NCBI GenBank assembly: GCA_026197075.1
Contig: JAPHQV010000003.1
Coordinates: forward strand, 1 to 60,622
From: Gammaproteobacteria bacterium
GTDB taxonomy: Bacteria; Pseudomonadota; Gammaproteobacteria; DSM-19610
Direction: 5' to 3'
Length of the DNA: 60,622 bases
Position 1 is the stretch's first letter. Every line of letters starts with the position of its first letter. Of this stretch, positions 3,178 to 11,335 are shown piece after piece. The position numbers were made by a program, and so were the translations under genes. The notes under the pieces are model-generated. The model was not told the DNA's origin. It was given only the letters and a program-made list of their open reading frames with translations, and searched no databases.

Positions 3178-3640
3178 TCGGTATACCTTGGGGAAAGCGG
3201 GAAACAAGGGCGGAATGATACCGGATTCAGGCAGTTATTGCATGACCCGGGACAAGGCCGGGGAATGGGCCTGCTCGGCCTGGATACACGTGGAAACAAG
3301 GGGTTAGGGGCAAGCACTGGGGTTCGGCGCTGCATAACACGGAGAACGCAGAGATAGGGAGAACACAGAGAAAAATATGTTTAAGAGTGGCACTGACGTA
3401 AGGCGGAGGGCATTTTTTCGTCATTCCGGTACTGGCTTGCGCTGGCACATGCTCCGCCCGGAATCCATGAATTCAATGCGGATACAGGTCCTGGATCCCG
3501 GCCTGCGCCGGGATGACGGGGCATGAGCTTAAGTCCGCGCGATTTATATCTTGAAAATCTCCGTGTTCTCCCTATCTCTGCGTTCTCCGTGTTTCGCGGC
3601 TCCATCCCCCAACGGAGCTACAAACCCCCACCGCACCCCC
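3178..3640. other. Gene-free stretch between glyA and the R-M island
   Basis: I see no credible gene here. The 5' part (3178-3330) would carry the glyA promoter. The remainder is filled by a nested repeat: outer ACGGAGAACGCAGAG arms (3335-3369 and 3559-3593) enclose a GTCATTCCGG/GGATGACGG palindrome (3419-3519). The stretch ends at the degenerate ettA-like promoter copy (3641-3699). Confidence 0.7.
3335..3593. repeat. Paired inverted intergenic repeat (ACGGAGAACGCAGAG family), upstream of glyA
   Basis: The arms at 3335-3369 and 3559-3593 match as 35-bp inverted repeats with one mismatch, and have the same consensus as the pair at 1698-1908. The loop contains another repeat family, a CGTCATTCCGG ... 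CCGGGATGACGG palindrome (3419-3519). Confidence 0.85.
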
Positions 3641-3699
3641 TATAATGCCCTGCTCTGGAACATCAAATGGAATCCTCATGGCGCAAACGTCTACACTAT
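3641..3699 (+). pseudogene. Degenerate copy of the ettA promoter and first codons
   Basis: This 59-nt stretch aligns without gaps to 8381-8426 (TATAAT box, GGAA, GGAATCC, ATGGCGCAA; 35 of 46 identical) and then, after a 1-nt deletion, matches ACGTCTACAC. In ettA these bases are the -10 box, the start and codons 1-7 (MAQYVYT). Here the frame is broken by the deletion and runs straight into the restriction gene's stop codon. It is a left-hand boundary copy of the R-M island. Confidence 0.8.
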
Positions 3700-4571
3700 T
3701 AGAGCCCGTGCTCATCCTTCAGTTGCATGAGATCGGCTTCCAACTGGTCAGTCATTGCCTGGGTGTAGATACGGTGAATCTTGCCCTGGTTCTGCAAAGT
3801 TACCAGCTTGTTCAGATCGCTGGTGCGATCGCGCCAAGTGATGCCGTCGGTAATGAGCAAAAAGTGAGTGTCATTCCGCTTCTCATAGACGATGCGAGTG
3901 ATATCGCCGAGCACATCGGTCTGTTTGCTGCCAGTGGCGCCGTAGGCCTTAACCTCGATCAGGATACTGGGATCATCCTTCGACGGGACCGCAAAATCAG
4001 TCTTTTCACTACTCGTACCGGTAGCACCCGTAAATTGACAACGCAAATCATAAGCGCCTTCACCAAAGACCTTAATCAATAATTTTTCAACAAAATCTTC
4101 CAGATAACGGCCACGGCGCTGCCCCTTGATAGCGCTTCCACGACCACCCTTGAGCCGTTCAGTGAGCAGATCACTCCAACTGATCGGTGTGTTAATGATG
4201 GCAGCCATGCGACTAAGAACCCCCAGCGATTCCAGTGCTGCGCATGCATTATCCGGATCTTTCTTGAAATGTTTGATACCAAGAGTACCACCGATACGTT
4301 CGCGTAATTCTGCCGTCAACTCGTCCTTGGACAGATCGAGGAACAGGCGGATTACTGTCAATCCGGCCTCGAACTTCTCCTTGGGCTTGAGGCCATTTGG
4401 AGTGTGTTCCGTGTCGAGCAGCTGCAGAAGATCGGCCCGGGTGTAATAGGCCTTCCGCGGAATCTGCCGCATACGTTGAATCACCGCGTCGGCGTGCGCA
4501 TCACGCCAACTGGTTTCTACGGGGGAAAGTTTCTGCAGGATTTCATTAAGGGTCTGTCGGTATCGCTTCAT
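3699..4571 (-). CDS. Type II restriction endonuclease, PD-(D/E)XK type (DpnII-like layout)
   Basis: A 290-aa protein starting MKRYRQTLNEILQKL. The catalytic core reads D192 ... E206-V-K208 followed by a GxxGSK segment (211-216), the PD-(D/E)XK pattern also seen in DpnII/MboI-type enzymes; the exact specificity cannot be read from sequence. The partner methyltransferase lies just upstream on the same strand, and without the IS66 element its stop codon and this ATG would be only 12 nt apart. IS66 has landed 7 bp before the ATG: the target duplication ends inside the start codon, so the coding sequence is whole but cut off from its operon. It is also in frame with the tnpC reading frame, giving a fused frame. 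Base use is visibly less GC-rich than flanking genes, suggesting transfer. Confidence 0.8.
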   Translation of the reverse strand: MKRYRQTLNEILQKLSPVETSWRDAHADAVIQRMRQIPRKAYYTRADLLQLLDTEHTPNGLKPKEKFEAGLTVIRLFLDLSKDELTAELRERIGGTLGIKHFKKDPDNACAALESLGVLSRMAAIINTPISWSDLLTERLKGGRGSAIKGQRRGRYLEDFVEKLLIKVFGEGAYDLRCQFTGATGTSSEKTDFAVPSKDDPSILIEVKAYGATGSKQTDVLGDITRIVYEKRNDTHFLLITDGITWRDRTSDLNKLVTLQNQGKIHRIYTQAMTDQLEADLMQLKDEHGL

Positions 4572-6158
4572 TAGTTCGTAAGCGGTCAATGAACGACAGG
4601 GTGGCTCAGCCATCCTGATCTGATCCGCGACAAGGTTACCGGGCAGCAGTGCCTCGATGGCTTCCACCGTTTCCGCCTTCGGCAGTTCGGTAAACAGATG
4701 CCGGAGATAGCGATAGGGCTCCAGGCCGTTGGCCTTGGCCGTCTCGATCAGCGAGTACAGGTTGGCGCTAGCCTCCACGCCCCGGACCGAGTCGCTGAAC
4801 AGCCAGTTCTTGCGGCCGAGCACGAACGGGCGGATCGCATTTTCGGCACCGTTGTTGTCGATCGCCAACCGGCCATCGTCCAGGTAACGGACCAGCTTGT
4901 CCCATTCGTTGTGCAAGTAGTTCAGGGCCCGGCCGGTGGTGCTGGTGGGTGGCACCTGCGGCAGGGCCTCATCCAGCCAGGCGCGCAGTTCGTCGAGGAT
5001 GGGCCGGGCATGCTGGTGTCGATGGGCATGGCGTGCTTCCGGTGTCAGGGTGCGCGCCTGCTTCTCGACCCCGTACAGCTTCTGGATCAATGCCAGGGCG
5101 CGGTGGGCCTTGCCGCGGGTCTTGTGCCTGCCCTGTGCCTTGACCGCCTCATCGAACTTGCGCCGCGCATGCGCCCAGCACCCGACGTGCCTCAGCCCAT
5201 GAACCGCCACGGCCGCATTGTAGCCATCATAGCCGTCGGTTTGCAGATAGCCCTGGAAGCCATCGAGCAGACGCCTGGGCACCCCGGCACCGCGACCGGG
5301 ATCGTAGTCAAACAGCACCACCGGCCGCTCCGGCGGCCCGCCGCGCTGCAGCCAGAGGTAGGACTTCGATTGTGCCGTCTTGCCTGCCTCCTTCAGTACC
5401 TGCACCGGCGTTTCATCCATCTGCACCATGTCATAGGCCAGCAGGCGATCGCGCAGCAGGTTGATGAGTGGCTGGATCAGCCGCCCCGCCTGGATCATCC
5501 AGTTCGCCAGCGTGGCACGCGGCAGTTCCACGCCGATGCGCTTGAGGATCGCCTCCTGCCGGTACAGGGGCAAGGCATCCTGGTACTTCGAGACCGTGAT
5601 GTGCGCCAGCAGGCCCGGCGAGGCCAGGCTCTTCGGGATCGGTTGGGCGGGCAATGGCGCGGTCTTGATGCACTGGCCACAGCGGCAGGCGTACTGCTTG
5701 CGGATATGGCGGATCACCTGGATCTTGGCCGGTACGATATCCAGCTGCTCCGACACCACCTCGCCGATCTCGGTCAGGGGCTGACCGTCATGCGGGCAGG
5801 TCCGCTCGTCGTCGGCCAGCGCATGCACCACCTCCACCCGTGGCAGCGCCTCGGGGAGTGGCTTGCGGCCGGTCTTCTGGCGGGTGTGGGCAGGAACGTC
5901 GACGGTCTCAGCTTGCGAGAAGGTCTCGGCCTCAACCTCGGTTTCATCGAACAACCGGATCTGATCCGGGGCGATCTTCTCGCTGCTGGCCGCGTAACGG
6001 CGCGCCAGCGCGAGGTTCAGTTGTTCCTGGAGGAGAAGGACTTTGGCTTGCAGCTGCGCGTTGCGCGCCACCACTTCGTCATGCTTTTTGGCTTGTCCAA
6101 CGAGTAGCGCCTTCAGCGCGTCCACGTCATCGGGTAATGGATCCAGTGCAATCGGCAT
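3699..6158 (-). CDS. tnpC: IS66 transposase TnpC, reading on in frame into the restriction gene
   Basis: TnpC is the DDE transposase of IS66 elements. It starts MPIALDPLPDDVDALKALL, with an N-terminal leucine-rich coiled coil (about 1-60), a zinc-finger-like domain (CPHDGQ; CRCGQC), the DDE core (MDETPVQVL, TDGYDGYNA, NNGAENAIRPFVLGRKNW) and the usual C-terminal LFTELPKAETVEAIEALLPGN. About 527 residues lie inside the IS. No stop occurs before the element's end: the frame crosses the TACGAACTA junction and continues through all 290 residues of the restriction enzyme, a potential 819-aa fusion. Whether a fused protein is made is unknown. Confidence 0.85.
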   Translation of the reverse strand: MPIALDPLPDDVDALKALLVGQAKKHDEVVARNAQLQAKVLLLQEQLNLALARRYAASSEKIAPDQIRLFDETEVEAETFSQAETVDVPAHTRQKTGRKPLPEALPRVEVVHALADDERTCPHDGQPLTEIGEVVSEQLDIVPAKIQVIRHIRKQYACRCGQCIKTAPLPAQPIPKSLASPGLLAHITVSKYQDALPLYRQEAILKRIGVELPRATLANWMIQAGRLIQPLINLLRDRLLAYDMVQMDETPVQVLKEAGKTAQSKSYLWLQRGGPPERPVVLFDYDPGRGAGVPRRLLDGFQGYLQTDGYDGYNAAVAVHGLRHVGCWAHARRKFDEAVKAQGRHKTRGKAHRALALIQKLYGVEKQARTLTPEARHAHRHQHARPILDELRAWLDEALPQVPPTSTTGRALNYLHNEWDKLVRYLDDGRLAIDNNGAENAIRPFVLGRKNWLFSDSVRGVEASANLYSLIETAKANGLEPYRYLRHLFTELPKAETVEAIEALLPGNLVADQIRMAEPPCRSLTAYELMKRYRQTLNEILQKLSPVETSWRDAHADAVIQRMRQIPRKAYYTRADLLQLLDTEHTPNGLKPKEKFEAGLTVIRLFLDLSKDELTAELRERIGGTLGIKHFKKDPDNACAALESLGVLSRMAAIINTPISWSDLLTERLKGGRGSAIKGQRRGRYLEDFVEKLLIKVFGEGAYDLRCQFTGATGTSSEKTDFAVPSKDDPSILIEVKAYGATGSKQTDVLGDITRIVYEKRNDTHFLLITDGITWRDRTSDLNKLVTLQNQGKIHRIYTQAMTDQLEADLMQLKDEHGL
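4570..4577. repeat. IS66 target-site duplication, left copy
   Basis: ATTAGTTC directly precedes the IS66 end GTAAGCGG at 4578 and is repeated exactly at 6968-6975 after the other end. Eight bp is the usual IS66 duplication length. Confidence 0.9.
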
Positions 6159-6192
6159 GCACAGGATTGTACTATAAATACAGGGAAAAGCG

Positions 6193-6552
6193 CTATAATA
6201 CGCTGCGAAAATACAAGCGCGCATGCGGCTGCAGGCGCATCACATCGTAGCCGTCCAGTAGCCAGTTCAGCTGCTGGCCGGTCAAGGTGATCACTTCGCC
6301 TTCGTCCTTGCGCGGCCATTTGAATCGCGCCTGCTCCAGGCGCTTCTGCCACAGGCAGAAGCCGCTGCGCTCCCAGTACAGGATCTTGATCTTGTCGCGC
6401 GTGCGGTTGCAAAACACGAACAGCTGCTCGGAAAACGGATCCTGCCGCAGGGTCTGTTCCACCAGTACCGCCAGCCCGTTGATGCCCTTGCGGAAGTCCA
6501 CCGCGTCCCGGCACAGGTACACGGTGGGCAGTTCATTCGACGGGCGCATCAT
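6193..6552 (-). CDS. tnpB: IS66 accessory protein TnpB
   Basis: A 119-aa protein (MMRPSNELPTVYLCRDAVDFRKGINGL..) with the conserved TnpB segments VDFRKGINGLA, FVFCNRTRDKIKILYWERSGFCLW and KRLE. It is required for IS66 transposition in studied members. Its ATG overlaps the tnpA stop by 4 nt (ATGA), and tnpC begins 34 nt downstream of its stop. It is of normal length. Confidence 0.93.
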   Translation of the reverse strand: MMRPSNELPTVYLCRDAVDFRKGINGLAVLVEQTLRQDPFSEQLFVFCNRTRDKIKILYWERSGFCLWQKRLEQARFKWPRKDEGEVITLTGQQLNWLLDGYDVMRLQPHARLYFRSVL

Positions 6553-6887
6553 CCCAGCGCCGCCGCCGTGCCGAGCACCACAGTCAGGGTCCCGGCATCC
6601 ACCGTGCCGGAAAACGCCACCGACACGCCGTTCGGCAGCTGGACCCGCCACTCACTACCTACGACCGTGCCCACCACCTCGGCCCGCTGGAGGCGTACCG
6701 GGCGCGGGTGCGACAACACGCCTTTCTGGACCAGCACCTTCTTCCCGGCATACATCGCCTGGGCGGCAATACCCTGTTCCGCTGCGTACTCCGCAATCGT
6801 CTTGCCAGAGGCCTCACAGGCCCGGACCTGTTCCAGCCAGTAGCGCTGGCGTTCCGTCAGCACCGGTTGCTTTGCCTTGACCATCAT
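6549..6887 (-). CDS. tnpA: IS66 accessory protein TnpA
   Basis: A 112-aa HTH protein: ERQRYWLEQVRACEASGKTIAEYAAEQGI is the Tnp/IS3-type helix-turn-helix, followed by a variable linker and a C-terminal VAFSGTVDAGTLTVVL segment typical of IS66 TnpA. The ATG at 6887 has GGAG just upstream; a GTG at 6914 in the same frame is less well supported. First gene of the element. Confidence 0.9.
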   Translation of the reverse strand: MMVKAKQPVLTERQRYWLEQVRACEASGKTIAEYAAEQGIAAQAMYAGKKVLVQKGVLSHPRPVRLQRAEVVGTVVGSEWRVQLPNGVSVAFSGTVDAGTLTVVLGTAAALG

Positions 6888-6967
6888 CTCGCTCCGCTGT
6901 GATTGAAATGGCACAGCGTGCGCGGAACGTTGTCAACTGGGTAGGGTGTGGTTTATTTTGCGGTTAC

Positions 6968-6975
6968 ATTAGTTC
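6968..6975. repeat. IS66 target-site duplication, right copy
   Basis: ATTAGTTC follows the IS66 end at 6967 and matches 4570-4577 exactly. It lies between the methyltransferase TAA (6982-6984) and the IS. Confidence 0.9.
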
Positions 6976-6981
6976 TTGTTC

Positions 6982-8124
6982 TTAGTAGCCAATAATCAGG
7001 TATTCCTGGACTTGGGCACGCTTGACGGTGCTGTGTGTACCGAAATGATAGCGGTGAGCGCGCTCAAACACATCTACGGACTGCTTATAGCGGCGCATCA
7101 GCTGGCGCAACTCGGCCAAATCAGGATAGCCGTTCGAGGAGTATGACAGGACCAGGGTGCTGTCAGCGAATTTTCGGAATAACTGGTCGAAGGCATCGAT
7201 GGCAGTGCGACGATAGGAGAATGGTGTGAACGGCTTATCGATCTTCTTGACGCGGCTATCTTCCATGATCGACTTACCTTCCCAGTAACACGACAGGCCT
7301 TCGAGGAAATGATAGCGTTTCATGTAGCAGTTGTCGTCAGCGCGTGGCACATAGGGTGGGTCCATGTACACCAGGTCGGCAGGGGCACCATCCCACGCGA
7401 AGATATCCCCATGACGAGCTACATTCGGTTGGCCGTTATCAAAAGCGGCCTCATTATAGACATCCACTTGCTCCAAGAAATGCTCTTGCAGTGATAACTT
7501 CAGATCGCGGCGACCATCCTTGTAATGCTCAGGGTCTCCTGCAATTGTAAACACACCGCGAGGCTGGCGCTTGACGCAAGATCGGATCAACGCGGCCAAA
7601 GCAATGGCTCGCTCATACGCATCGCCTAGCTTATTGATATTCCAGGACACCCGGTCGAGAAAACGAAGATCCTCTGGAGTATAGAAAATCCCAGAGAAGG
7701 TGCGCTCAATGAAATGTTTATGCCTTGGATCATAGGTCAGCAACTGCTCAAGACTAACCTCTGAAAGCTGGTGCCCCGGGTTCTCGATCAAAGCCTTTGC
7801 AACGGTAGTACTGAGATTAAGAAAATCATTGGTAACGACCTGCTTACCCATGGCTTTGAACAGGTAACCCACACAACCAGAACCGGAAAAGGCGTCGATG
7901 GCTGTCTCGAATTGATAGCCTGATAGAATTTTGTGAATCCATGGCAATAGCCGGTACTTGCTACCCATAAAGCGCAACTGAGGATACCGCTCTGCCATAA
8001 CCGGGAACCCGCCATCAAAAAGCTCTTCCTGGATGGGGTCAGGGATGGGTTCAGCAATCTTATCTGCGGATTGATTCTTGCGTTCAACGTGAACTGGGTA
8101 CATAACTGGGCGGGATGAACTCAT
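6982..8124 (-). CDS. DNA adenine-N6 methyltransferase, D12 class (R-M partner)
   Basis: A 380-aa D12-class methyltransferase. Motif X RFMGSKYRLLPWI (51-63), AdoMet-binding motif I DAFSGSG (77-83) and catalytic motif IV DPPY (255-258) appear in the order of the alpha/Dam-like group, with the target-recognition region between. It would protect host sites against the endonuclease encoded next. The first ATG (8124) lacks a clear ribosome site, and M43 at 7998, nine residues before motif X, is an alternative start. The stop lies 6 bp from the IS66 target duplication. Codon use is more AT-rich than in flanking housekeeping genes, in keeping with an acquired island. The recognition sequence cannot be inferred. 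Confidence 0.88.
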   Translation of the reverse strand: MSSSRPVMYPVHVERKNQSADKIAEPIPDPIQEELFDGGFPVMAERYPQLRFMGSKYRLLPWIHKILSGYQFETAIDAFSGSGCVGYLFKAMGKQVVTNDFLNLSTTVAKALIENPGHQLSEVSLEQLLTYDPRHKHFIERTFSGIFYTPEDLRFLDRVSWNINKLGDAYERAIALAALIRSCVKRQPRGVFTIAGDPEHYKDGRRDLKLSLQEHFLEQVDVYNEAAFDNGQPNVARHGDIFAWDGAPADLVYMDPPYVPRADDNCYMKRYHFLEGLSCYWEGKSIMEDSRVKKIDKPFTPFSYRRTAIDAFDQLFRKFADSTLVLSYSSNGYPDLAELRQLMRRYKQSVDVFERAHRYHFGTHSTVKRAQVQEYLIIGY

Positions 8125-8417
8125 AGGTTAGTTGTTCCCTGCGTTCGCATTTTGCTTGAGTTGCTGAACATTGAGAAGGTGTCAATAAAATGCGTGGCCT
8201 CCTTCCCTTTTCGAAATCACATCACACAGTATACGCCTGATGTGTAACTTTGCGTCCAGCAAATTACGTGCAATTAATACTTACCACACTTAACCTCACA
8301 AGACATAAAAACAACAACTTACCAAGCATTCCTGGGGCAGCGAATCTGCCCGGACGGTGCAATCCTGGCCCGCGTCCACCTATAATCACCCCCTTTGGAA
8401 CTGCTTACGGAATCCCC
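8125..8417. other. Divergent control region between methyltransferase and ettA
   Basis: AT-rich and without a credible gene. It must contain the methyltransferase promoter (leftward) and the ettA promoter (rightward; TATAAT at 8381-8386, 31 nt before the ATG, with a weak TGCAAT at -35). The sequence switches from AT-rich (8125-8335) to GC-rich (8336 on), which probably marks the right edge of the island. Confidence 0.55.

Positions 8418-8440
<23 letters not shown>
8381..8440 (+). promoter_or_regulatory. ettA -10 box, leader and start (right copy of the island repeat)
   Basis: Contains TATAAT, a short leader and ATG GCG CAA TAC GTC TAC. It aligns with the degenerate copy at 3641-3699, so the R-M island lies between two versions of the same 60-bp target. 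No strong Shine-Dalgarno precedes the ATG. Confidence 0.7.
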
Positions 8441-10117: not shown

Positions 10118-11113
10118 TCAAGTGTGACGCAGATGGCAGTCACTGAACAGCCTGGCCGAGTCGAACGGGGTACTGTGTTTGAAGCAGGCCCAGAGTCCAG
10201 TCAGGTACTTGCGCATGACGGCACATAGGGCCTGTATTTTCTTCTTTCCTCGCGCGACCAGCGCTGCGTAGAAGGCCTTGGCGCGTGGGTCGTGCCGGAT
10301 GGCGCTCATGGCCGGCATGTACAGAGCAGCCCGCAGATAGGCATTGCCTGCCTTACTCAGGCGTGCCGGCCGGTTCACACTGGTGCCGGATTGGCACAGC
10401 CGTACGTCCAGCCCCGCATACCGACTTACCTGCGGTGCCTTCAGGTGTGCCGGCAGCACACACAGTTCACCCAGGATGGCGATGGCACTGGCCGTGGCGA
10501 TCCCCTTGGCGGCGCACAGGGCCTTCAGCTGCACGGTCAGCTCGGCGGATTCGGCCAGCAGGGCCAGGGCCGCCTGCTGCAGCCGTTCAATCCTCCGCTC
10601 CAGCAGGGCGATCCCTTCCAGCTCGTCCTCGATCAACAGTGGCAACGTCATCCGTTTGGCCCGCAGGGCATGTAGACGGTTCCTGGCTTGAGTCCGACTC
10701 GCCGTCAGGTGATTGATTTGGCGTGCAATATCACGCAGGGCCAGCCGTGTCGGGTCCGGCGGTGTCCACCGCGGCGGTGTCATCCGCTCCCCAAACTCCG
10801 CCAGCAGGGCGCTATCCACCCCGTCCGTCTTGCTGCCGGCCAGCTTCAACTCGGCGAAGTGGCGAAAGCTCTTGGGGTTGATGACCGACACCGGCAACCC
10901 CGCCTGGGCCAGCGCCACCGCCAGGTCCAGGTAATAAATCCCTGTCGCTTCCATCACGATATGGCGTGGTTTCAGGGCCTTAAGCTGTTTGATCGCCTTC
11001 GCGTGGCCTTCCGCTGTTTGCGCGAAACTCACCGGCCGGGCATTCTGGCCACCCTCCCGCACCACCATCTCGAACGTCTTGGCTGCTATATCCAGTCCTA
11101 CGAACCCATTCAT
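10118..11113 (-). CDS. IS110-family DEDD transposase
   Basis: A 331-aa RuvC-like recombinase. The N-terminal DEDD domain shows D in FVGLDIAAKTFEM, E in VMEATGIYYLDLA and the paired Ds in SKTDGVDSALLAEF. The C-terminal Transposase_20 domain includes GIATASAIAILGEL and LSKAGNAYLRAALY with its conserved serine. The ATG at 11113 has an excellent GGGGAGGTGA Shine-Dalgarno 7 nt upstream, which rules out earlier starts. It appears intact and points toward ettA. Confidence 0.93.
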   Translation of the reverse strand: MNGFVGLDIAAKTFEMVVREGGQNARPVSFAQTAEGHAKAIKQLKALKPRHIVMEATGIYYLDLAVALAQAGLPVSVINPKSFRHFAELKLAGSKTDGVDSALLAEFGERMTPPRWTPPDPTRLALRDIARQINHLTASRTQARNRLHALRAKRMTLPLLIEDELEGIALLERRIERLQQAALALLAESAELTVQLKALCAAKGIATASAIAILGELCVLPAHLKAPQVSRYAGLDVRLCQSGTSVNRPARLSKAGNAYLRAALYMPAMSAIRHDPRAKAFYAALVARGKKKIQALCAVMRKYLTGLWACFKHSTPFDSARLFSDCHLRHT

Positions 11114-11335
11114 CGGCTTCACCTCCCCGGTTCCATACGCCACAATGGTTACCGGTTCCCCGACCTCGCACTTCTTGCCGCCTCGACCTTGTGATGCGAA
11201 GTCCAACCAGGTTGGCTTCCTGATACTCCTCGGGGTTGGCAATGAGGCGGGGGGCCACTCTACGGGCGAGGTCAGATCATCTCTGCCTCTAGGAGCGAAC
11301 GGCTTCCCCGGTAACCCTTACACCCAACTTCAGGG
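11114..11335 (-). ncRNA. Possible IS110 bridge-RNA region
   Basis: In IS110-group elements the non-coding end upstream of the transposase encodes a structured bridge RNA that specifies target and donor sites. This 220-nt leader has no gene and includes small hairpins such as CCAACC-A-GGTTGG (11203-11215) and ACACCC/GGGTGT near 11323-11340. The RNA itself, its ends and guide loops are not demonstrated here. Confidence 0.35.

Follow-up and report, generated by a model that had tools for sequence, protein, structure and literature searches.

The minus strand of the window (the whole stretch of 60,622 nucleotides analysed here) carries a reading frame that joins an IS66 transposase to a complete restriction endonuclease, raising the question of whether this is a new kind of fusion protein or an accident. 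The frame is open from an ATG at 6158 to a stop at 3699 and encodes 819 aa, including all 290 endonuclease residues, with the mechanically called ORF containing it extending to 841 aa from an ATG at 6224. The IS66 domains precede the DpnII domain (PF04556), and a peptide spanning the fusion would read ...SLTAYELMKRYR. A preliminary description of this DNA had the tnpC frame crossing the end of the insertion sequence (IS) and the target duplication into the complete endonuclease, and both its coordinates and its reading are correct.

An IS66 element within a DpnII-type operon

The locus is made up of the following features:

3699–4571, minus strand: DpnII-family type II restriction endonuclease, 290 aa (PF04556, E 2e-10; alignment A2)
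4570–4577, no strand: target duplication ATTAGTTC, tnpC side
4578–6967, minus strand: IS66-family insertion sequence, 2390 bp, with terminal repeats and 8-bp duplication
4578–6158, minus strand: tnpC (DDE transposase) portion of the fused frame, kept open up to the end of the IS by a frameshift (PF03050, E 3e-106; PF13817, PF13005, PF13007; NF033517)
6193–6552, minus strand: tnpB of IS66 (PF05717, E 5e-42; NF033819, E 1e-39)
6549–6887, minus strand: tnpA-like accessory gene of IS66 (NF047593 IS66 TnpA, E 2.7e-9)
6968–6975, no strand: target duplication ATTAGTTC, tnpA side
6982–8124, minus strand: D12-class N6-adenine DNA methyltransferase, partner of the endonuclease (PF02086, E 5e-19; PADLOC MTase_II, E 6e-103)

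IS66 transposition with 8-bp target duplications is of an established kind, and the element described here resembles other members of the family in its gene content, domain content, GTAA-type ends, and duplication. Its tnpC contains the DDE domain, zinc finger, and C-terminal element, with NF033517 above cut-off, and the accessory genes tnpA and tnpB likewise score above cut-off (NF047593 and NF033819 respectively). The related terminal inverted repeats read inward as GTAAGCGGTCAATGAACGACAGGGT from 4578 and, on the minus strand, as GTAACCGCAAAATAAACCACACCCT from 6967, with 17 of the first 30 bases identical, and both flanks carry the 8-bp duplication exactly. The element differs from its family in that one deleted base costs tnpC its in-element stop; ending within the element is the usual anatomy of tnpC in the relatives, however membership of the family does not depend on it. 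A search of the genome returned one match, giving a copy number of one in its own assembly, with no further copies found.

Operons of the DpnII type, in which a D12 adenine methylase gene (M) is followed by that of a DpnII-family endonuclease (R), are also an established kind, and the restriction-modification (R-M) unit of the window has the same order and both families, differing in being split by the IS. An uninterrupted pair is present in a genome of the same family (G019, contig C37, locus L032), with the methyltransferase ending in ...IIGY and TAA, followed by 12 nt and the endonuclease start ATG KRYRQT. The spacer reads TAAGAACAACACCCCATGAAGCG in G019, and TAAGAACAAGAACTAATGAAGCG when the flanks in the window are joined, with the same 12-nt spacing. 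This match confirms, at the level of sequence, that the IS66 insertion split an M-R operon, and agrees with the earlier proposal that the insertion cuts the endonuclease off from its methyltransferase. The endonuclease ATG (4571–4569) was indeed rebuilt as proposed, with AT lying within the duplicated target and G being the next base. The M-then-R order recurs in five plasmid homologues, with the gene ends overlapping by one base. A helix-turn-helix-like frame, possibly a controller, lies 3' of the endonuclease on the same strand in the G019 locus (L032:1022–1378); no counterpart was seen in the window. Searches of an open library of papers on IS66 tnpC structure, stopless IS elements, and IS-split R-M systems found nothing direct.

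The endonuclease scores 40.8 bits against PF04556 (cut-off 23), placing it in the DpnII family, and its PD-(D/E)XK-type residues Asp192, Glu206, and Lys208 are intact and invariant across seven aligned sequences. The G019 endonuclease is 81% identical to it, with plasmid endonucleases from rhizobia, Paracoccus, Sphingomonas, and Roseibium being 47–53% identical. No relatives were confirmed in viral contigs, and comparison of the sequence with solved structures gave no meaningful match. The assembly contains no second methyltransferase of the same kind as the D12-class enzyme here.

A one-base deletion at the end of tnpC

The preliminary description treated the missing tnpC stop as a feature of the element itself, and proposed searching IS66 relatives for tnpC genes lacking a stop. 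We compared the end of tnpC with relatives, which were taken both from genome contigs and from whole genomes. In relatives of at least about 60% identity with the same end type, tnpC stops inside the IS, 28–31 nt before its end, with tails of ...DQIRIG (typically), DQIKIG, or DADQIRIG directly ahead of the stop. Of the 39 loci in which an IS end was recognised, 35 have an in-IS stop, the set including a few loci that represent the same copy retrieved again. The four exceptions are the window itself twice (L001 and L031) and the relatives L053 and L008/L121, with L053 reading beyond its own IS end for ~25 codons and L008/L121, a copy in genome G109, for ~seven codons, both into nothing notable. 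Neither points to a naturally stopless tnpC: the tail of L053 shifts frame just ahead of the conserved end, and L122, the sibling of L121 that is in a different frame, stops inside the IS. Independent copies thus do not share the absence of a stop before the IS end that a target-dependent transposase stop would entail. The search gives no support to a stopless design, and what the preliminary description had itself named as counter-evidence, a tnpC that ends inside the IS in other copies, is what the relatives display.

Two further features account for the open frame:

4611–4612, minus strand: one-base deletion relative to all aligned relatives (alignment A1)
4606–4608, minus strand: TGA that formerly ended tnpC, shifted out of frame

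The deletion lies two codons ahead of the ancestral stop, with the site reading AGGAT-GGCTGA in the window and AGGATCGGCTGA in the same-genus copy. This copy, L076 (genome G001, at a contig end), is the nearest relative, with 85% identity over the last 121 bp; it reads AGGATCGGCTGAAC against AGGAT-GGCTGAGCC in the window, and in the longer alignment ...GATCAGATCAGGATCGGCTGAAC against ...GATCAGATCAGGAT-GGCTGAGCC. Placing a placeholder base at the gap makes the window read ...DQIRxG followed by a stop, with the TGA at 4608–4606 back in frame. It is because one base is deleted between 4611 and 4612 that tnpC has no in-IS stop here, and the open junction is, as the aligned sequences have it, a private one-base deletion and no property of the IS.

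The same observation, that the junction hangs on exactly one base present in every aligned relative including that of the same genus, would also be expected were the gap a sequencing or assembly error, with the real tnpC stopping at the TGA at 4608–4606 and no fusion frame existing. We consider an error unlikely, albeit a serious candidate. No homopolymer is present at the deletion site, and the assembly has a completeness rating of 99.67%. A codon-usage scan, coarse as it is, gives long, unbroken genes over the window, with no other frameshift obvious. Furthermore, the tnpC tail has changed frame in other genomes too (L053, and L121 of G109). With no homopolymer at the site and well-formed genes across the window, a real deletion appears more likely than an error. 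The two readings overlap, in that the split of the operon holds either way.

Of the 35 loci that have an in-IS stop, 30 meet no stop in the shifted frame up to the IS end, because the terminal sequence of the IS (e.g. TCGTTAACCGCTTAC) lacks one in that frame, and most such indels would therefore give read-through. That the shifted tnpC frame is also the endonuclease frame would be a coincidence of roughly one in three, and there is no need to invoke selection to explain the open fused frame.

An open frame with domains present in both halves, and with the endonuclease intact, is nonetheless what would be seen if a transposase-endonuclease protein were made and kept by selection, moving the R-M genes or giving the IS control of restriction. 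A functional fusion of this kind is very improbable, with no relative having it, its source being a private one-base deletion, comparable read-through in L053 and L121 giving short meaningless tails, and the IS being present in a single copy. An expressed fusion protein with any role, such as IS-controlled restriction or nuclease-assisted transposition, is equally far-fetched. Accident is the most likely origin of the transposase-nuclease fusion, and the case for a new kind of protein is weak whether the deletion is real or an error.

Probable effect on restriction

We regard the following history as highly probable. An IS66 element inserted into an operon of the DpnII kind, with M and R 12 nt apart and the endonuclease ATG overlapping the target duplication, and its tnpC, as the relatives show, originally ended 28 nt before the IS end. 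A one-base deletion, visible in the sequence, then moved tnpC into a frame that meets no stop on its way out of the IS, and that matches the endonuclease frame presumably by chance. Parted from its translational neighbour, the endonuclease would now be makeable mainly as a tail of the transposase, with free restriction enzyme probably much reduced and methylation going on. Two points stand against this history: the deletion rests on one assembly, and the intact endonuclease frame would also fit continued use. The dN/dS of the endonuclease against G019 is 0.09, and that of the C-terminal part of the methyltransferase 0.04, both values being rough, with synonymous sites near saturation, and relating mainly to the period that preceded the insertion. 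GATC shows no depletion in the window, with 333 sites seen and 342 expected.

No Shine-Dalgarno-like sequence is evident on inspection ahead of the endonuclease ATG, whether in the original arrangement or with the IS in place. This suggests that the endonuclease formerly depended on translation of the methyltransferase, whose end lay 12 nt upstream. Additionally, a consensus scan of 4500–7050 found no minus-strand promoter of sigma-70-like type. Behind the IS, the endonuclease would be readable only as the tail of tnpC or if its own ATG supported weak initiation. Were such initiation to suffice on IS-derived transcripts, the endonuclease would still be made separately and the system would still restrict, consistent with the preserved ATG and with a minus-strand scan that found no terminator-like site from the end of tnpC up to the endonuclease. 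The missing Shine-Dalgarno-like sequence and promoter argue against separate production, as does the ancestral tnpC stop, 34 nt upstream of the ATG and no longer in frame, and we view continued restriction as possible but doubtful. Reduction or loss of free endonuclease, with the methyltransferase intact, is the most likely outcome.

Surroundings of the R-M unit

The R-M unit sits between glyA and ettA, which in several relatives are neighbours about 1.1–1.3 kb apart. It is flanked by an imperfect direct repeat (3636–3686 and 8376–8426), with 39 of 51 positions matching (76%) compared with at most 28 in shuffled sequences. The 51-bp repeat copies the ettA promoter and first codons, with further similarity reaching as far as about 3700 and 8440. 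The repeat has the look of a long target duplication, since decayed, left by insertion of the R-M unit, which may have arrived in this manner. R-M units are reported to insert with long target duplications (Nobusato et al. 2000, cited in PMC3031569). The unit of the window is likewise flanked by repeats, however its two copies have diverged from one another.

A motif of ~34 bp (TCTCCGTGTTCTCC..TCTCTGCGTTCTCCGTG) occurs at 1704–1737, 1869–1902, 3338–3371, and 3558–3591, forming two inverted pairs around glyA, with one further weak match only elsewhere in the assembly. Directly downstream of ettA, a 374-aa frame (10118–11242) resembles, by eye, an IS110-type transposase.

Implications

The locus provides a clear small example of an IS splitting an R-M operon, with a single indel in the tnpC tail producing an apparent gene fusion. 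It also serves as a warning, as fused frames over IS66 ends are expected by-products, the shifted frame there usually being stop-free. For the organism, an intact methyltransferase beside an uncoupled endonuclease may plausibly represent a step toward a solitary methyltransferase.
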